The notes beneath the pieces were generated by a model. It did no database searches and had not been told where the DNA came from. It worked only from the letters and a program-made list of their open reading frames with translations. Below are positions 50,866-62,728 of a DNA stretch of 64,000 nucleotides, piece by piece. A program made the position numbers and the translations under genes. This DNA is from Desulfovirgula sp. (GTDB lineage Bacteria; Bacillota; Desulfotomaculia; Desulfotomaculales; Desulfocucumaceae), in NCBI GenBank assembly GCA_020725625.1, contig DYET01000034.1, positions 1-64,000 on the forward strand, read 5' to 3'. Numbering within the stretch: the stretch's first letter is position 1; every line of letters starts with the position of its first letter.

Positions 50866-51264
50866 ATGCTCACGGAAGACGAGGCCAAGGAGGTTTTATC
50901 CCGGGCAGGCGTGCCGGTAACTCCCTGCCAGGTGGTCTTCAGTGCCCGGGAAGCGGCCCGGGCGGCCCGGGAAATCGGTTTTCCGGTGGTCCTGAAGGTC
51001 CGATCTGCCGTTATTACCCACAAGACCGATGTCGGGGGGGGGGTATATTTAAACCTTAAAAGCATCACCCAGGTTCGCCGGGCCTTTTATGATCTGATGA
51101 AAAAGGTAAGGCACCGTGACCTCCGGGCGGGGGCCGCCGTACAGCCCATGGCCCCTTCCGGAATTGAGGTGATTACCGGCATGACCGGAGATCCCCAGTT
51201 CGGTCCGGTCCGCGGTGCTGCCAAAGCGGGTGGAGCGGTTCGGCTTCCCCGATTTGCTTTATAA
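50866..51264 (+). pseudogene. truncated ATP-grasp domain of NDP-forming acyl-CoA synthetase
   Basis: MLTEDEAKEVLSRAGVPVTPCQVVFSAREAARAAREIGFPVVLKVRSAVITHKTDVGGGVYLNL...TGMTGDPQFGPV then terminates abruptly; about half of the domain missing. Confidence 0.7.
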
Positions 51265-53499: not shown

Positions 53500-53660
53500 A
53501 TAATTCAGTATTCACCCCGGAGTGCCCGTTATCCTCCTTGAAGACGCGGGAAAATCAGCAAATATCTGTTCGTCGGGCGGGAAAATCCTGTTTTACACGC
53601 TGATCCGGCTTGCTGATCCTGTGCTATAATAGTTTAAAGCCTTTTGCCGGAGGTTCGGCC

Positions 53661-54151
53661 GTGATCAGGGAAAAGTTTCATGAATTTCTTCAGGAACTGC
53701 TTGACCAAACCGTCCGCTGTTACGGGGACCGGCTGGTTACCCTGGCGGTTTTCGGTTCGGTGGGGCGGGGGTGCCAGAGGGCCGATTCCGACATTGATAT
53801 TTTAATTATCGCCGAAAACCTGCCTGATGGCAGGCTCAAGAGGATGCGGGAATTTGAGAAGGTGGAAGAAGCCCTCGAGTCTTCCCTGATCCGGCTGAAG
53901 GATGCGGGTATAAGCACCTGCCTGTCCCCGGTAATCAAATCGCCCGGGGAGGTTAAGCACGGCAGCTTGTTGTTTCTGGACATGATAGAGGACAGCCTGA
54001 TCCTCCATGATCGGGGAGGTTTTTCCGGTCTTTCCTGCGGGAATTTAAAAAAAGGCTGGACGCCCTGGGCGCCCGCCGGGTGGTGCGGGGCAACGCCTGG
54101 CACTGGGTGCTGAAGGATAAATACCGGGAAGGCGAGGTCTTCGATCTGTGA
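53661..54151 (+). pseudogene. MNT-type nucleotidyltransferase (antitoxin-like) with a single frameshift
   Basis: FGSVGRGCQRADSDIDILI NTase motif; coding switches frame at T5 run 54020-54024 to FRSFLREFKKRLDALGARRVVRGNAWHWVLKDKYREGEVFDL*, whose stop (54149-54151) overlaps the next start. Confidence 0.75.
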
Positions 54152-54495
54152 ATAACCATACCCTGGCCCAGAGTTACTTGATCAAGGCCACCAAGCGACT
54201 GCGCGTCCTGGAGGTGCTCATGGAGGAAGATGCCTATTCCGACGTGGTGCGGGAGGCGCAGGAAACAGTGGAGCTGGCCTTAAAGGGTATTTTGCGCCAG
54301 ATTGGCATAGAACCCCCGAAACAACATGATGTGGGCGGGTTGATCCTGGAATACCGGGACAGGTTGCCGTCACCGGTGGGGAAAAAAGCCGGGAAACTGG
54401 CCCGGATTTCCAAGTGGCTGAGAAAGGAGAGGGAGTTTGCCTTCTATGGCGACGTGGATTTTATGGTAACACCTCGAGCTAGTTTTTTGCGGTAG
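54148..54495 (+). CDS. HEPN-domain protein, probably C-terminally truncated (partner of MNT)
   Basis: AQSYLIKATKRLRVLEVLMEEDAYSDVVREAQETVELALKGILRQIGIEPPKQHDVGGLI; ends abruptly after FAFYGDVDFMVTPRASFLR. Confidence 0.7.
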   Translation: MNNHTLAQSYLIKATKRLRVLEVLMEEDAYSDVVREAQETVELALKGILRQIGIEPPKQHDVGGLILEYRDRLPSPVGKKAGKLARISKWLRKEREFAFYGDVDFMVTPRASFLR

Positions 54496-54559
54496 CCCCT
54501 TTTCTTCTGACATTTAACCCCTATAATTGCTTTATAACCCGAAAAATTTTATTCTGGAA

Positions 54560-54691
54560 ATGCTTTCGAGTGTTTGCCACGACCTGGACGAAAACTCTTT
54601 TTTATTTACTCCGAAACCAAATCGTCTTGGTTCCTTGATTCGCATAATTGATGAAATCTCCTTCAATCCCGCCACTGAATGTACAAACTGA
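54560..54691 (+). CDS. possible small ORF or remnant (43 aa)
   Basis: MLSSVCHDLDENSFLFTPKPNRLGSLIRIIDEISFNPATECTN*; AT-rich region between TA remnant and island operon. Confidence 0.2.
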   Translation: MLSSVCHDLDENSFLFTPKPNRLGSLIRIIDEISFNPATECTN

Positions 54692-54924
54692 GGGTTTTGC
54701 CGTCAGTCAAAGTAGATATTAACAGGATACGACCCAATCTTTTTGAGCGGCTAATTTTTCGCCAACAGAGGCAGGTTTTTTCTTTATACTGACGAATACT
54801 TAGTAGAGTTACCCTAAGAATGATGGCAAATGAATATGATTTGAGGCGGCATAAAGTAGCATTCCAAATTTGATAAGTCCATTACTTATATATAGTTGTT
54901 TATTTCTAAGAAGGAAGTGTCAGA

Positions 54925-57900
54925 ATGAATGTTAACCTCGAAGTATTCGCAGCAAAGCTCGCGCCCGGTGTTACTCAAAAGTTGCTTTTTGCCGCGAAAC
55001 AAGGTGTTACAGAAGCAGATTTCCGAAGGGAAGCTGCCCATATTCTTGAACAGGCTGGAGCAGAGGCTAACCTTACCATTGTCCCCCGGGACGAGTTTTC
55101 TGTTGCCCGAGGCCGTGTAGATTCAGTCTACAACCGCCTAGTACTGGAGTACAAGCGGCCTGGTACAATAAGGGCTACCAACGACCGGCGTGCCAACCAG
55201 GATGTTATCAGGCAGGTGCAGGAATACATTCTTGATGTGGCGAAACGGGAGCGCAGGGAATCTCAACGTCTTGCCGGTGTAGCCACTGATGGCTTCTATT
55301 TTATTTTCGTCCGCAGGGTTGGTGAGGGCTGGTCTGTTGACGACCCGGTGCCGGTTACCCCTGTTTCTACGGAACGCTTTCTACGCCTTCTCTTTTCGCT
55401 TTCCGCAGGTGCCGCGCTGGTACCAGAAAACCTTGTAGAAGACTTCGGCCCAAACAGTTGGCGGGCTAAAACCGCGGTCCGGGCGATCTACCGGACCCTT
55501 GCTAGCAGCAAAAATCCTCTCGTTGAAAAACTCTTCGAACAGTGGCGCTTTTTCTTCAGTGAAGCCACCGACTATAAAGAATGGGCGGGTCGCATTGAAT
55601 CGAAGCCAGAATTCCGGACTTTTGTCGGCTCGCTCTGGACTAAGGAGGAGATCAAACATCTCGATCCTGCCAGGGTTTTTTTCGTCCTCCATACTTACTA
55701 TGCCCTCCTGATTAAGCTGGTAGCTTCCCTAGCGGCTGCCCGATTCACAGGCAGTTCCCCTACCCCCCTTTCGCAGTTAGCGGCCAAGGCAGGGGGGGAA
55801 CTGCAAGAAGCCTTAGCGGAATTAGAACGTGGTGGACTTTTCAGGGAATACGGAATCCGAAACTTTCTTGAAGGGGACTTTTTCGGATGGTATCTTGCCT
55901 CGTGGAACGATGACATTGAAGAGGCAACTGGTAAACTTGTCCAGCGCTTAGCTGAGTACGACCCCGGTACGTTAGAACTGGCGCCGGAGAACGCCCGCGA
56001 CCTGCTCAAGAAGCTTTACCACTACCTCCTACCCCGCGAGATCCGCCACGATCTCGGTGAATACTATACTCCAGACTGGTTAGCGGAACGTCTAATAATT
56101 CAGACCTTGGGGGCTGATCTAGGTAACGCCGCCAAGCGCGTTCTGGATCCGGCCTGTGGCTCGGGTACCTTCCTGGTGATCCTGATCAAATACATCCGTG
56201 AAAGGGCGACTCGAAAGAAGCAGGACCCGGTGGCAACGCTGGAGTTAATATTGCAGAACGTTATCGGGATTGATCTCAACCCCCTGGCCGTTATCGCCAC
56301 CCGGACCAACTATCTTCTAGCCTTGGGCGACTTGCTGAAATACCGGAGGGGTGATATTGACATTCCAGTTTATCAGGCAGATTCAATTCTCACCCCCTCC
56401 CGGGGGAGCGGCTTGTTCGATGGTAACGTCTTCTTGTTAAAGACGTCTGCCGGAATTTTTCGTGTCCCGGCATTTTTTGCGGAACGGGAACGGATTGATG
56501 CACTGACAAATGAGCTGGATGCAGCCGTGGAAGAAGGGATCGGTGAAAATACCTTCCTGTCGCGGGTAGAAAAACAGGCCAACCTCGAACCAGAGGAGAT
56601 GGCGGCTGCGTCGGACGACCTGAAGATTCTCTATCAACAATTACGCGATCTTCACGAACAGGGACTGGATGGCGTTTGGGCCCGAATTATCAGGAACGCC
56701 TTTGCTCCACTTTTCCTAGATGCTTGCCACTATATTGTCGGCAACCCGCCATGGATTAATTGGGAGAACTTACCAGAGGATTACCGTTTACAGACAAAAT
56801 CCCTATGGGAACACTACGGCCTTTTTCCCCACAGCGGAATGGACACGATCCTGGGTAAGGGAAAGAAAGACATCTCCATGCTGATGACCTACGTAGCAGT
56901 GGACCGCTACCTCCGGCGCGGCGGCAAGCTAGGTTTCGTTTTGACCCAAAGTCTCTTTAAAACGTCCGGGGCTGGACAGGGTTTTCGCCGTTTTCTCTTG
57001 CCGGACAAAACGCCTTTTGGACCCATGGTAGTTGAGGATATGGTAGAACTAAAACCCTTTGAAGGGGCCACTAACCGGACGGCGGTAGCCGTATTTGTAA
57101 AAGGAAGCGCAGTTCGATACCCCGTCTCTTATCAGTACTGGAAAAAACGCGGAGAAGGCCGTGACAGTGCTATCGGGTTCGATACCCCGTACGAAGAAGT
57201 TACAAAGGAAAAGATAACCTATAAGGCATGGTACGCAGAACCGGTAGACAAGGAAGACCGTACTTCCGCATGGATTACGGCGAGGCAGAAAGCCCTGCAT
57301 GCCTTGCAAAATGTTCTAGGGAATTCACCGTATTCGGCCCATGCTGGATCATATTCCGGTGCTAACGGTATTTACTGGGTAGAGATTATTGGCACAAGAC
57401 CAGGTGGCCTGGCAATCGTGACCAATATCACGGAAGGAAACAAACGGCGTGTCCCTGACACGCAGGCTACAGTCGAATTCGACTTGTTATATCCCCTGCT
57501 GCGTGGTCGTGACGTTAACCGTTGGATAGCAATCCCTTCCACTCATATCCTGATAACCCAGGATCCCGTCACCCGGCGCGGTATAGCTGCGGAGATTATG
57601 GAAAGAGAATACCCAAAGGCTCACTCATATCTCTCAAAGTTCGAAGGGATTCTAAGAAGTAGGGCTGCCTTTCGTCGTTATTTTAAAGAGACCGACCCTT
57701 ACTGGTCCATGTTCAACGTTAGCACGTTTACATTTGCGCCTTGGAAAGTTGTGTGGCGTGAACAGGCTTCAGAATTTACTGCAGCGGTAGCAGGACCGTT
57801 CAGTAATAAGCCAGTTATTCCTGATCATAAGCTTATGATGGTCGAAGCAAGTTCGCGTGAGGAGGCCTACTATTTGTGTGCTGTTCTGAATTCTACTCCA

Positions 57901-58167
57901 ACGCGTTTTGCAGTGAAAGCATATACTGTCCAAATCCAAATGAATACACATATTTTGGATAATGTTGCCGTGCCAAAGTTTTCACCTAAAAAAATATTAC
58001 ATAAGAAAATAGCTGAACTTTCCGAGGTGGCACATAAAACTGCTTCTGAAGGCAATACCGCCGAAGTTAAGAGAATCGAGGAGGAAATAGATCACTGGGT
58101 GGCCAAACTATGGAACCTGACGGATGAACAAATGGTAGAAATCAAGCGTTCGTTGGAGGAGGCCTGA
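54925..58167 (+). CDS. N6-adenine-type DNA methyltransferase with N-terminal PD-(D/E)xK-like nuclease region (type IIG-like RM protein)
   Basis: RGRVDSVYNRLVLEYKRPG (D...ExK), EYYTPDWLAERLI, VLDPACGSGTFLVILIKYI (motif I), YIVGNPPWINWENL (motif IV NPPW). Confidence 0.85.
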   Translation: MNVNLEVFAAKLAPGVTQKLLFAAKQGVTEADFRREAAHILEQAGAEANLTIVPRDEFSVARGRVDSVYNRLVLEYKRPGTIRATNDRRANQDVIRQVQEYILDVAKRERRESQRLAGVATDGFYFIFVRRVGEGWSVDDPVPVTPVSTERFLRLLFSLSAGAALVPENLVEDFGPNSWRAKTAVRAIYRTLASSKNPLVEKLFEQWRFFFSEATDYKEWAGRIESKPEFRTFVGSLWTKEEIKHLDPARVFFVLHTYYALLIKLVASLAAARFTGSSPTPLSQLAAKAGGELQEALAELERGGLFREYGIRNFLEGDFFGWYLASWNDDIEEATGKLVQRLAEYDPGTLELAPENARDLLKKLYHYLLPREIRHDLGEYYTPDWLAERLIIQTLGADLGNAAKRVLDPACGSGTFLVILIKYIRERATRKKQDPVATLELILQNVIGIDLNPLAVIATRTNYLLALGDLLKYRRGDIDIPVYQADSILTPSRGSGLFDGNVFLLKTSAGIFRVPAFFAERERIDALTNELDAAVEEGIGENTFLSRVEKQANLEPEEMAAASDDLKILYQQLRDLHEQGLDGVWARIIRNAFAPLFLDACHYIVGNPPWINWENLPEDYRLQTKSLWEHYGLFPHSGMDTILGKGKKDISMLMTYVAVDRYLRRGGKLGFVLTQSLFKTSGAGQGFRRFLLPDKTPFGPMVVEDMVELKPFEGATNRTAVAVFVKGSAVRYPVSYQYWKKRGEGRDSAIGFDTPYEEVTKEKITYKAWYAEPVDKEDRTSAWITARQKALHALQNVLGNSPYSAHAGSYSGANGIYWVEIIGTRPGGLAIVTNITEGNKRRVPDTQATVEFDLLYPLLRGRDVNRWIAIPSTHILITQDPVTRRGIAAEIMEREYPKAHSYLSKFEGILRSRAAFRRYFKETDPYWSMFNVSTFTFAPWKVVWREQASEFTAAVAGPFSNKPVIPDHKLMMVEASSREEAYYLCAVLNSTPTRFAVKAYTVQIQMNTHILDNVAVPKFSPKKILHKKIAELSEVAHKTASEGNTAEVKRIEEEIDHWVAKLWNLTDEQMVEIKRSLEEA

Positions 58168-58169
58168 TT

Positions 58170-59309
58170 ATGGGTAATCCGTTTGAAGGTCTTCAACCGG
58201 CACTTCAGGTAATCGCAAGAGAAGGATACATCCTGCCGGCCACTGGTCAGGCGGTGGAAGACTTGATGCGGCCCGACCAGGAAGAAGCTTACGACAGGGT
58301 ACGCCTTGGCATAGAACCAGGGGATGTTCTCGACCTAGTTATCGAGGTGCCTAACCGGAACCTTTACGTGGACAGCACACCTATTGGAAGAGAAAAAAGG
58401 CATATTTTTCAGTACTTCCTTGATGGGTCGGCCAGAACCTTTTACCTGGGCAATGTAGTGGAGGGTGACAGGCAGACGCCTATTCATGTGGCGCAAATTG
58501 GCGCCGCAGCAATCGTTCGGGATAACCTGGGACGAATGAAGATCGCCGATTCAGAGCAAAGGTTTGTGCTGCTCATGGATAAAGACCAACTTTCGTTTGG
58601 CCAGCAGGTGGAGGACGCAGTCAAAGCGGCGGGATCGCGCTACGAATTTGTCAACCTTAAAGAGGAGGACCGCCAGACAGACGGAATCCAAGCCGGAAAG
58701 GAGCCTAGGTCTAGGGCGGCGCACAAGGCCAACTGGCGGATGCGTGTACTGGAAAAACATATCGCCACAAAACTGGAAAGGAAACCCGGTCAGTGGCTGG
58801 TGCTCGACGGGGGACTGGGGAGCGAATACGCAAAAGACTGGCCGGATGGAAAAGATTATCTGGGGGTGGTTAAATCTTCCTGGAAGGAACTTAAGTTCTC
58901 TGTCAAGAGCGGCCGCGTAAAACAGACACTTAATACCTACCAGCTTCTGGCTAACCTGAAGGTTGGCCAGCGAACCCTGGCATTCGGGCTAAGAGAAGGA
59001 CTTATTGCCACCTGGTACGTCCGCATCAGGGGTCCGGAATACCTGGAATTCCCGCTCATGGGGGTGTTGCGCATTGAACTTCCCAACCCCAGCCGGGAGG
59101 CGGTTCATTCGGAACTCATCGATGAACTATCCGGAGCCTTGGTTGCCGAAAGAAGTGTTTCCCCACATGGAAAAGATTCCAGGTGGCATTCTCACCTGTA
59201 TCCAATCTACCTGGCCGAGCAATCGGTTAAGAACGGTTTTGTAACTACAGAGGTTCTCAAGGCGGGTATGAAGTGGCCGGCTCATGCTAGCGGTGCCATT
59301 ACCCGGTAA
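58170..59309 (+). CDS. NurA-like nuclease domain protein
   Basis: HIFQYFLDGSARTFYLG, WLVLDGGLGSEY...YLGVVKSS, SHLYPIYLAEQSVK resemble NurA motifs; pairs with the downstream HerA-like ATPase. Confidence 0.7.
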   Translation: MGNPFEGLQPALQVIAREGYILPATGQAVEDLMRPDQEEAYDRVRLGIEPGDVLDLVIEVPNRNLYVDSTPIGREKRHIFQYFLDGSARTFYLGNVVEGDRQTPIHVAQIGAAAIVRDNLGRMKIADSEQRFVLLMDKDQLSFGQQVEDAVKAAGSRYEFVNLKEEDRQTDGIQAGKEPRSRAAHKANWRMRVLEKHIATKLERKPGQWLVLDGGLGSEYAKDWPDGKDYLGVVKSSWKELKFSVKSGRVKQTLNTYQLLANLKVGQRTLAFGLREGLIATWYVRIRGPEYLEFPLMGVLRIELPNPSREAVHSELIDELSGALVAERSVSPHGKDSRWHSHLYPIYLAEQSVKNGFVTTEVLKAGMKWPAHASGAITR

Positions 59310-59326
59310 AGGAGGTAAAACACAGT

Positions 59327-61087
59327 ATGGCTGACGAACTAAAAGGCAATGCAATACTACCAGCGGATCGGAGGATCATCGGGAAGGCTTCCGCTACTGA
59401 GCGGGATCCGAACTCGTCAGAAAAGTTTTCTTTTTGGCTGGGGCCGGACGAAATCGTCAACCCTTTTGACATTGTTGAAGCGGAGCAAATGGAAGATACC
59501 CGTACCTTTGGCCTGGTAACCAATATCAAACAGATTACCGATGCTCCTTCCCACATTTCCAATTATATCTCCAGTGACTTTGGTAGCACCCAATCTATAC
59601 CGCAAACCCCTCGTCAGGGTACCAACGTGGCAGAGGTAAACGTGCTCGCCAATTACGATCCCTCCGAACCTCAAAGGTACCCCATGGGCATTTATATGCC
59701 GGTCCAGAACGATGCACCGGTGTGCTTCGCAGATGAAAAAGGGATTCACGTGGCCCTCGGTATTGACAAAATGTTTGAATATGAGAAGGAATATAACGAG
59801 CGTATCACAATCCCAGCGGGAATGATCCGAATGTCCAATGGAACGAAAGTGCGGGTATATCTGGACAAACGGTATGTGTTGGGACCGGAAGGAGCGCATG
59901 TCAACATCTCCGGGATCTCCGGTCTAGCCACCAAGACCTCTTACGCGATGTTCCTAATCCAGTCCATCTTGCAAAGTGTGGGAGCGAAAGATATTGCAGT
60001 TGTCTTGTTAAATGTTAAGCAGAACGACCTCCTGGTGATCGACAAGCCAAGAAAGGACATTAAACCGGGGGATCTTGAACTCTGGGAGCTTCTCGGCCTC
60101 AAACCGCAACCGTTTGAGAATGTCCGCTACCTACTCCCGTGGGGTAAGGAAACACAAACCACCGGACTTCCCAATTGCTTCGGTGAGCCACCTGACCAAT
60201 TCCAGACCTACGCATACTCTCTGGAGGATGTGGTGGGTAACCGTGCCAGTCCGGGGCCAGGCCTTGGCCTTTTGATCCGTGTGCCGGATCCCTGGGACAC
60301 CCTGGGTGCCCTTATCGGAGAAATTCAGCACGGTATCAGTAATCAGGAATCCAAGTGGAGAAATGTCAATACCTGGAGCGCACTTTTAAATGGGCCTCCC
60401 CTGATGGACAAGGGTATTCCCCAGCCTATAGGAGAGGTGAGGGCCTCATCCGTGGGCCGCTTTATCAGGATCCTTCGGCGGGTGGTAAGGAACCGTCAAT
60501 CTGGCTTGTTTGTGGAGCAAAGGGCTCCAAGGCGGGCAGTAAACCTAGGTGAAGAAATCCGGAAAATTGAGGGCGGTCAAACCACTGTGGTTGATATTGC
60601 CAAGCTGACCGATGAGGAACGGGCCCTGGTTTTCGGGCACATAATACAAGAAGTTTATGGTATGTACGCCGAGGCTACTATTGATGAAAGAGGTGACTTG
60701 CCGAAAAAAGTCATCATTTTTGTTGATGAACTGAATAAGTACGCGCCATCGCGCCGGGGAGAAAGCGACTCATCAATTCTTGAGTATGTACTCGACATTG
60801 CCGCTAGGGGTCGCTCGCTGGGAGTTGTGCTAATCTCGGCGGAACAATTTATGAGTGAGGTTCACGGGCAGGTGGTAGGAAACTGCGCCACTAAGGTTAT
60901 CGGCCGGAGCGATTCGTCCGAACTGTCTGATGCCGCCTATCGTTTTATCGCACAGGACGTAAAGGCGCACCTAACACGCTTAGACAAGGGGGAGCTTCTA
61001 CTCTCGCATCCCATCTATAGACAACCAATAAAAATCGAATTTCCGCGAACTGCATATCAGGCGATAGGACATGATCGCATGAGGTGA
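59327..61087 (+). CDS. HerA/DUF87-like ATPase
   Basis: VNISGISGLATKTSYAMFLIQSIL P-loop region, KKVIIFVDELNKYAPSRRGESDSSILEYVLDIAARGRSLGVVLISAEQFMSEVHGQVVGNCATKVIGRSDSSEL (Walker B and downstream HerA/FtsK signature). Confidence 0.78.
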   Translation: MADELKGNAILPADRRIIGKASATERDPNSSEKFSFWLGPDEIVNPFDIVEAEQMEDTRTFGLVTNIKQITDAPSHISNYISSDFGSTQSIPQTPRQGTNVAEVNVLANYDPSEPQRYPMGIYMPVQNDAPVCFADEKGIHVALGIDKMFEYEKEYNERITIPAGMIRMSNGTKVRVYLDKRYVLGPEGAHVNISGISGLATKTSYAMFLIQSILQSVGAKDIAVVLLNVKQNDLLVIDKPRKDIKPGDLELWELLGLKPQPFENVRYLLPWGKETQTTGLPNCFGEPPDQFQTYAYSLEDVVGNRASPGPGLGLLIRVPDPWDTLGALIGEIQHGISNQESKWRNVNTWSALLNGPPLMDKGIPQPIGEVRASSVGRFIRILRRVVRNRQSGLFVEQRAPRRAVNLGEEIRKIEGGQTTVVDIAKLTDEERALVFGHIIQEVYGMYAEATIDERGDLPKKVIIFVDELNKYAPSRRGESDSSILEYVLDIAARGRSLGVVLISAEQFMSEVHGQVVGNCATKVIGRSDSSELSDAAYRFIAQDVKAHLTRLDKGELLLSHPIYRQPIKIEFPRTAYQAIGHDRMR

Positions 61088-61097
61088 AGAAAGGATA

Positions 61098-62330
61098 ATG
61101 GCGCACAAGTATAGAGTAGAGGAACGACTGGGTTGGCGACGATGGGTAACGCCACAACTCCTAAGGGATAAACCTGTACATCGCTGGTATGTATTCCCAC
61201 ACAGCTTCACTGGAGAGTTGGTTCATGCCCTGATAGACGAATGGGACCTTGGCAAGAAGGATCGCATCCTTGATCCTTTTGTCGGGGCGGGAACGACGCT
61301 GTTGGCTGCCAAAGAGAGGGAGATACCCGCTAGTGGTTTTGATCTTTCACCGTTGGCAGTCCTCGCCGCACGCACGAAGGTTGCCAACTACAATATTTCA
61401 AACCTAAAAAAAGCTTGGAAATCTGTAAAGAAAACTTTTTACAATGTTAACAGGAACAAAGTTTCCAGGCCGTATCCTGAATTAGTTCAGAAGGCTCTAC
61501 CAGGGCGAGTTCTTGAGGTATTCGACGCGCTTGCCAGGATAATTGATGAAGTCGAGATGTTCGAAACGGACCGGGATCTTCTCCGTTTGGCGTTACTTTC
61601 CATTCTTCCCCTTTACAGCAGTGCTATTGCAACGGGTGGTTGGCTCAAATGGGTTGAGAAGCAAGTGGACGAAAAAAGCATTCCGGAAGCATTAACGGCG
61701 CGTGTTGAGATGATGCTGCATGATCTGCAGGAGGTACAGCTTCCGCGGCTACCAGGGTGGCAAGCTGTTCAGGCAGATGCACGACAGCTTCCCGTTCAAG
61801 ATGAGTCTTATTCGGCAGTCATTACTTCTCCACCCTATCCCAATCGCCACGATTACACCAGGGTATTCGGGATCGAGCTAATGTTTGGTTTTATAGGTTG
61901 GGAAGAAACGCGGCAGCTTCGCTATCAAAGCTTTCATTCTCATCCGGAAGCACGCCCGACGCGACCGGGTGCTAATGATTACAAATCACCAACAGCACTG
62001 ACCAAGGCAGTTAAAAACCTCAGAGAAAAAAATCTGGAACCTCGAATTATATCTATGATAGAAGGTTATTTCCTTGACTTGTATTTGTGTCTTCGAGAAA
62101 TGAAGCGTGTTTGCCGCCAAGGGGCGAAGATTGCCTTTGTGGTCGGCAATGCACGGTACTGTGGAGAAACTATTTTAGTAGATGAACTTACGGCAGAAGT
62201 CGGGGAACAGGCTGGCTTGAAATGCTCTAAACTCCTCGCAGTTCGCTATCGGGGTAATAGTGCACAGCAAATGGGTAGATACGGACGCAGCCCTTCTCGC
62301 GAGAGCGTAGTCATTTTTGATAAATCGTAA
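61098..62330 (+). CDS. DNA methyltransferase, N4-cytosine/N6-adenine type (TSPPY motif)
   Basis: ILDPFVGAGTTLLAAKEREIPASGFDLSPLAVLAA (motif I) and YSAVITSPPYPNRHDYTRVFGIELMFGF (motif IV). Confidence 0.85.
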   Translation: MAHKYRVEERLGWRRWVTPQLLRDKPVHRWYVFPHSFTGELVHALIDEWDLGKKDRILDPFVGAGTTLLAAKEREIPASGFDLSPLAVLAARTKVANYNISNLKKAWKSVKKTFYNVNRNKVSRPYPELVQKALPGRVLEVFDALARIIDEVEMFETDRDLLRLALLSILPLYSSAIATGGWLKWVEKQVDEKSIPEALTARVEMMLHDLQEVQLPRLPGWQAVQADARQLPVQDESYSAVITSPPYPNRHDYTRVFGIELMFGFIGWEETRQLRYQSFHSHPEARPTRPGANDYKSPTALTKAVKNLREKNLEPRIISMIEGYFLDLYLCLREMKRVCRQGAKIAFVVGNARYCGETILVDELTAEVGEQAGLKCSKLLAVRYRGNSAQQMGRYGRSPSRESVVIFDKS

Positions 62331-62650
62331 GAGAATTACCTGACGACGTTTTTTAAATCTGTTAAAAAGTATTGATTCTAAATAATTTAGTGTCACAGTC
62401 GATGATAAAATGACCAACCTACATTGCAGAGGCTGCCATCCGCCCCGCGAGGAGGTATACAATGGGAGCAGGAAGTTAAAAGAATTTTTTTCGATATCTG
62501 TAAAAACACCTGCCTGAATTAAGGCTGTATTTTTCCAGGGTTAGATTAAATTCAGACTTCATATCCGCTGATAATTACAATCTGGTCTTCAGCACGCTTT
62601 CTAATTGCAGTAACATTGCAGTAATTGGGTGGTATCCGTATTAAAAAACC

Positions 62651-62728
62651 TGGTCGGGATGGAGGGATTTGAACCCCCGGCCTCCTGCTCCCAAGGCAGG
62701 CGCGCTAGCCAAACTGCGCCACATCCCG
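62651..62728 (-). tRNA. tRNA-Pro (anticodon TGG), CCA end encoded
   Basis: minus strand CGGGATGTGGCGCAGTTTGGCTAGCGCGCCTGCCTTGGGAGCAGGAGGCCGGGGGTTCAAATCCCTCCATCCCGACCA; acceptor stem CGGGATG/CATCCCG. Confidence 0.95.

Follow-up and report, generated by a model that had tools for sequence, protein, structure and literature searches.

A TspDTI-type restriction-modification enzyme linked to a bacterial NurA-HerA pair in an acquired operon of Desulfovirgula

Introduction

Restriction enzymes of the TspDTI subfamily (TspDTI, Tth111II-TthHB27I and TsoI) are chains of about 1100 amino acids in which a nuclease, a helical region, a methyltransferase and a recognition domain follow one another, with the motifs DPACGSG and NPPW (PMC3384240). 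TspDTI itself is a well-studied reagent enzyme of 1112 amino acids with a D-EXE nuclease motif. According to that report, it both cuts and methylates DNA; in vitro it needs no partner for double-strand cuts, and its cleavage is incomplete. Its N-terminal and internal peptides are also published there. TsoI is reported to nick chiefly single-site supercoiled DNA rather than to cut it (PMC6449304). A NurA-HerA partner is not mentioned for any of these enzymes in the passages of PMC3384240 that were consulted. Here, we describe an operon in which an enzyme of this kind is followed by genes for a NurA nuclease, a HerA translocase and a second methyltransferase. It lies in a contig of Desulfovirgula sp. 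(GenBank assembly GCA_020725625.1, contig DYET01000034.1), of which the first 64,000 nucleotides were analysed and are called the window below.

NurA and HerA are classically an end-resection pair, and a 2023 structural study reported the bacterial pair in few bacteria only, with an uncertain role (PMC9960219). In T. kodakarensis, an archaeon, HerA-NurA degrades both strands of double-stranded DNA whatever the structure of the end, and its authors propose an antiviral role (PMC12977600). HerA-family ATPases also act with a nuclease in defence, for instance in HerA-DUF4297, Sir2-HerA, DndFGH and the HerA/FtsK capture systems (PMC10853773, PMC11291478, PMC12839542). These systems resemble the operon in this pairing, but their nuclease partners are other than NurA, which goes unmentioned in the comparative papers on DndFGH and BREX. 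BREX, DISARM and MADS share with the operon the logic of a methyltransferase combined with an ATPase; in contrast to them, it has no PglZ, BrxC, DrmA/B or other MADS genes, and its scores against their families lie far below the NCBIfam cut-offs.

The four proteins of the operon

Gene A (54925..58167, + strand, 1080 amino acids) is, as judged from profile matches, conservation and an AlphaFold model, a TspDTI-like restriction-modification enzyme of type IIG/IIC, complete and equipped with a nuclease domain; both cleavage and methylation are predicted for it. It matches the PADLOC type IIG model PDLC03630 with 1226 bits over residues 22-1079 of 1080, and the Pfam families N6_Mtase, MmeI_Mtase and Eco57I. 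The original prediction, which was made from the letters alone, had read a PD-(D/E)xK nuclease and an N6 methyltransferase into this protein, and both are there: a D-EXK nuclease motif at D66-SVYNRLVL-E75-Y-K77, DPACGSG at 408-414 and NPPW at 607-610. In the model (predicted local distance difference test, pLDDT, 82), the nuclease occupies approximately residues 1-160 and is followed by a helical region, the N6-adenine methyltransferase and a C-terminal recognition domain, which is variable at about residues 880-1040. The TspDTI subfamily is characterized by a single chain of about 1100 amino acids that unites a nuclease, a methyltransferase and a recognition domain, and by the D-EXE/D-EXK, DPACGSG and NPPW motifs, all of which gene A has. 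Residues E30, D66 and E75 are kept in 45/45 aligned relatives, in which the third nuclease position gives EXE in 30 proteins and EXK in 15. The window protein belongs to the latter; it thus differs from the D-EXE enzymes of the subfamily, is about 45% identical to the Thermus proteins and is accompanied by an additional methyltransferase, gene D. Since gene A is complete and has its own nuclease, the set is best taken as a NurA-HerA module added to a restriction enzyme of a known kind. Separately, four relatives of gene A (L160-L163, in G430, G247, G452 and G489) are only about 765-850 amino acids long, without the nuclease domain and without NurA-HerA close by.

Gene B (58170..59309, + strand, 379 amino acids) has no Pfam match. 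Nevertheless, its sequence matches Deinococcus NurA in the PDB (7f6d_H, E 3e-6), and its profile aligns with that of a PF09376-positive NurA at 95.6% in hhalign. The fold of this protein had been set as a point on which the original prediction could fail, and a NurA fold is indeed what its AlphaFold model (pLDDT 83) indicates, as the sole two significant fold matches in the PDB are bacterial NurA structures (7f6d_G, E 1e-13; 1zup, E 9e-9). The protein is RNase H-like, with the acidic residues D85-G-S, E195 and D213-G; D85 is kept in 69 of 70 relatives and D213 in all 70. Gene C (59327..61087, + strand, 586 amino acids), correctly taken for a HerA-like ATPase, matches Deinococcus HerA (7f6d_B, E 1e-39) and the profile of Thermus HerA (hhalign 100%). 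It has no match to Pfam DUF87, and neither has the stand-alone HerA of Thermus. Its motifs are GISGLATKTS (196-205), D467-E468 and R527, with K203, T204, D467, E468 and R527 kept in 75/75 relatives. The two genes therefore have the features of the bacterial pair, which are an RNase H-like NurA fold with acidic residues and, next to it, HerA with its ATPase motifs. On these matches, gene B is a bacterial-type NurA and gene C a bacterial-type HerA, with a predicted nuclease activity, a predicted motor activity as a hexameric DNA translocase and a predicted complex between them.

Gene D (61098..62330, + strand, 410 amino acids) is a TSPPY DNA methyltransferase, as had been expected. It matches the PADLOC model PDLC03224 (MTase_II) with 230 bits and carries DPFxGxGT at 59-66 and TSPPY at 243-247, the latter kept in 28/28 relatives. 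A conservation profile places a variable region at 91-240, between the two motifs. TSPPY is the motif usual for N4-cytosine methyltransferases.

An acquired island

The four genes (54925-62330) lie on the + strand with intergenic gaps of 2, 17 and 10 bp, exactly as first noted. Their GC content is 0.48-0.53 and their GC content at third codon positions (GC3) 0.45-0.57, while the means of the flanks (34 open reading frames, ORFs) are 0.594 and 0.758; at most one of these 34 ORFs lies below genes A-D in base composition. Thus, the AT-richer, foreign composition proposed at the outset was confirmed, and the codon usage that had been described as different does differ in GC3, the one measure by which it was assessed. 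In a genome of the same genus (G001, locus L174), the alignment covers window positions 53581-54464 and then resumes from 62627, so that a HEPN gene and a tRNA-Pro gene stand only about 190 bp apart and the operon is absent. The tRNA-Pro neighbourhood without the operon also occurs in three further genomes of the family. Because of the foreign composition and of this empty site, genes A-D are considered an acquired island of 8.16 kb (54465..62626, no strand assigned). At its right end, the island adjoins the gene for tRNA-Pro(tgg) (62651..62728, - strand). No direct repeats were found within either island-end stretch examined singly, the left end not being matched against the right.

Recurrence and co-divergence

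Bacterial and archaeal species genomes were scanned with an alignment of HerA, as a scan with NurA alone as query had given no matches. Among the 448 relatives obtained, the best 80 were taken as the loci for analysis. By record title, they include members of Bacillota (Moorella sulfitireducens among them), Armatimonadota, Nitrospirota, Desulfobacterota, Planctomycetota, Omnitrophota, Chloroflexota and Thermus; many belong to metagenome-assembled genomes, and single taxon labels may be wrong. In 72 of the 80, HerA has at least 48% identity, and 37 of these are flanked by 5 kb or more in each direction (well-flanked loci). The recurrence on which the original prediction depended is clear: gene A is present in 31 of the 37 well-flanked loci and A or D in 35, and NurA adjoins HerA in 66 of the 67 loci that have at least 600 bp upstream. 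The architectures among the best 80 are A-B-C-D (22 loci), A-B-C without D (21), B-C-A, or C-A at a contig end (11), and B-C-D without A (7); the remaining loci are too short or lack both A and D. A-B-C is the core that recurs, and gene D, which accompanies it in the closest relatives of the operon, is optional. The orders A-B-C and B-C-A both stay contiguous across many phyla, and overlaps of 4 bp are common between A and B and between C and D.

Linkage was also observed within the phylum. Among 398 of its genomes, gene A with at least 46% identity occurs in nine (one copy broken) and HerA with at least 55% in the same nine, always side by side; neither a close A alone nor a close HerA alone was found, and 13 genomes with weaker or partial relatives of A have no HerA of this family. 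The distance matrices are strongly correlated (A-B 0.91, A-C 0.88, B-C 0.92, A-D 0.79, C-D 0.71), with a maximum of 0.36 after shuffling. The association of A with NurA-HerA is far beyond chance, and the four genes have co-diverged. In plasmids, relatives of A have merely 23-31% identity among the matches listed, and HerA gives six distant records; known plasmids are therefore not the main carrier. Phage records contain two distant HerA matches. One locus (L035, G089:C254, 2882-3303) holds the end of a NurA gene followed by only the start of a HerA gene, apparently a decayed copy.

The Thermus genomes give the operon a link to a known enzyme. The published 35-residue N-terminus of TspDTI is reproduced exactly (35/35) in two of them. 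In one (G500), the protein with this N-terminus also contains the internal peptide REPEFYGIMDIG (12/12), has 1112 amino acids and is encoded immediately upstream of NurA-HerA, the comparison being by published peptides and length. This agreement implies that TspDTI has an overlooked NurA-HerA partner. In general, NurA and HerA directly follow A in Thermus (4/4 genomes with A, with the HerA frame split in G498). Between G496 and G500, the A proteins are about 99% identical at residues 1-480 and only 30-35% at 961-1040, with HerA at 99.8%; by this comparison, the putative recognition part changes and the NurA-HerA part stays. T. scotoductus has, in addition, a stand-alone chromosomal NurA-HerA pair adjoining gcv genes, with no restriction-modification gene there. 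The known bacterial pairs of Thermus and Deinococcus (7f6d; PMC9960219) share the NurA fold and the HerA motifs NISGISGxATKTSYA (Walker-like) and DELNKYAP with the operon, but they are presented as repair enzymes, and HerA identity to the stand-alone Thermus pair is about 30%.

Comparison with defence catalogues

No PADLOC (2023) model matches gene B, HerA matches are at superfamily level only, and NCBIfam (June 2026) gives the same picture. PglZ, BrxC, DrmA and DrmB have no match among genes A-D or the two genes upstream, and the PglX matches of gene A cover the methyltransferase domain only, far below the NCBIfam cut-off. The mad1-mad8 set of MADS was not recovered, as the mad2 and mad8 matches are at superfamily level only (HerA to mad8, a weak 49 bits). 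Gene C scores 12.6 and 10.3 bits against the HerA_antiphage equivalogs, for which the cut-offs are 800 and 850, and its partner is NurA and not that of HerA-DUF4297 or Sir2-HerA. In the open-access papers searched on NurA, HerA, type IIG and TspDTI, no description of a type IIG enzyme with a NurA-HerA pair was found. The proposal of an undescribed system is supported for the set, which matches no named subtype in these sources (PADLOC 2023, NCBIfam 2026, literature), but not for gene A alone, which matches a known type. Similarly, the set had been seen as restriction-modification-like without a recognizable restriction component; PglZ and DrmA/B are indeed lacking, but gene A is itself a full restriction-modification enzyme. 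Overall, the parts are known, and it is their combination that appears new, within type IIG restriction-modification.

Proposed function

The operon is horizontally mobile and may be a restriction-modification system that includes an arm for degrading DNA, in which A would mark self and cut unmodified DNA, NurA-HerA would degrade the cut molecule and D would add a protective mark; we give this reading a probability of roughly 0.6. The original prediction had likewise proposed that NurA-HerA degrades unmodified DNA and that both methyltransferases protect the host. In such a system, A would recognize a short asymmetric site, methylate the host adenine and, where the site is unmodified, make a double-strand cut at a fixed distance. 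The hexameric HerA ring would take the new end, presumably handed over from A, and feed the duplex into the NurA dimer, by which the cut DNA would be degraded, so that an invader cut only slowly and at few places would still be destroyed for good. D would add a second methyl mark, probably protecting sites that A has marked on one strand only. This is considered the best explanation because of the strict linkage, co-divergence and 4-bp overlaps, the intact active sites in all four families, the empty site, the agreement of the Thermus protein with TspDTI in peptides and length, the variation in the recognition region of A, and DNA degradation by archaeal HerA-NurA. The operon would then illustrate a way for type IIG enzymes to have an invader destroyed once it has been cut, and a NurA-HerA partner could explain the incomplete cutting by isolated TspDTI. 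More broadly, these data suggest that bacterial NurA-HerA often serves to defend the cell against foreign DNA. Given 448 HerA relatives, with most of the best-scoring well-flanked ones beside a restriction enzyme, this role is directly testable.

Several observations weigh against this reading. B-C-D occurs without A in four well-flanked loci (L064, L075, L087, L091), and two others (L102, L104) lack both A and D, which shows that A is not required for NurA-HerA to be present; the loci come mostly from metagenome-assembled genomes; and Deinococcus NurA-HerA is reported to resect 5′ ends and not simply to destroy DNA (PMC9960219). Perhaps NurA-HerA is the main restriction effector, with A (together with D) reading methylation and loading the motor wherever a site is unmodified, in the manner of ATP-dependent restriction systems, and with the cut by A a minor event or a nick. 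The incomplete cleavage by the Thermus enzymes (PMC3384240) and the nicking by TsoI (PMC6449304) would fit this alternative, as would the loci without A and the related pairs joined to partners without a type IIG enzyme. Nevertheless, the invariance of E30, D66 and E75 and the double-strand cuts that TspDTI makes unaided (PMC3384240) argue against it and make this alternative unlikely.

Somewhat less probable still is that NurA-HerA serves as a safety device, processing host breaks made by the type IIG enzyme, for instance at freshly replicated sites, for recombination repair. The classical role of the pair in end resection (PMC9960219) agrees with this, and D would likewise limit self-damage. 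However, AddA is above its cut-off in 7 of the 10 host genomes searched, so resection is generally available; Deinococcus tolerated DNA damage better once nurA-herA had been deleted (PMC9960219); and the separate stand-alone pair is retained in T. scotoductus. The simpler idea that NurA-HerA replaces a missing AddAB is weakened by the same AddA count, which argues against replacement of an absent resection enzyme. Finally, although defence genes cluster and the accessory modules differ among loci, it is very improbable that NurA-HerA and an ordinary type IIG enzyme merely share defence islands without working together, because of the 9/9 linkage, the co-divergence, the overlapping frames and the contiguity of both gene orders across many phyla.

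Accessory genes and related operons

In every B-C-A locus with a radical-SAM gene visible beyond A (six loci), this gene encodes a radical-SAM/B12 protein; the other B-C-A loci stop shortly after A, and none of the loci with D has such a gene. This downstream protein of about 380-540 amino acids (L086, L093, L097, L099, L100, L105, and also L157), never found alongside D, might substitute for D as the modification enzyme. Among more distant HerA relatives, NurA and HerA form operons with a GHKL ATPase (HATPase_c_3) and a radical-SAM/B12-binding protein (L029, L030, L033, L106, L109-L111, L113-L116), which follow the pair, except in L106, where they precede NurA. These operons contain neither a methyltransferase nor a type IIG enzyme, and no description of them was found in the literature. 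It is conceivable, if tentative, that NurA-HerA is an interchangeable DNA-destroying engine which a whole class of defence systems in bacteria plugs into varied self/non-self sensors. Modification by the sensor would gate the engine, which would then be a counterpart of RecBCD under the control of methylation. The sensors could then be a TspDTI-type enzyme with a second methyltransferase or a radical-SAM/B12 protein, a GHKL ATPase with a radical-SAM/B12 protein, an OLD-like ATPase, or a DndC-like protein.

Other neighbours vary. An OLD-type ATPase-TOPRIM protein (AriAB-like, 240 bits) is encoded upstream of NurA-HerA and the type IIG enzyme in L028 and L086, and a DndC-like protein of the PAPS-reductase family immediately upstream of a HerA-NurA pair in L032 (G070:C91, 3-4196). 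Accessory ATPase modules are at times inserted between A and B. Of the accessory modules placed before NurA, a triplet (339 amino acids, AAA_22, 278 amino acids) occurs in L048, L068, L071 and L077, and a pair of AAA_21 and DUF4276-like proteins occurs in L073, L075 and L091.

In the window, the island is preceded by an MNT-HEPN toxin-antitoxin-like pair (53610-54495). Its HEPN gene (54148..54495, + strand; Pfam HEPN, 2e-16) has had its 3′ end replaced by the island and is intact in the same genus. The pair was rejected as a component of the system, as G001 carries it without the operon, and is placed outside it. Further upstream, a short ATP-grasp-like ORF (50866-51264) resembles, by eye, a truncated acyl-CoA synthetase beta domain.

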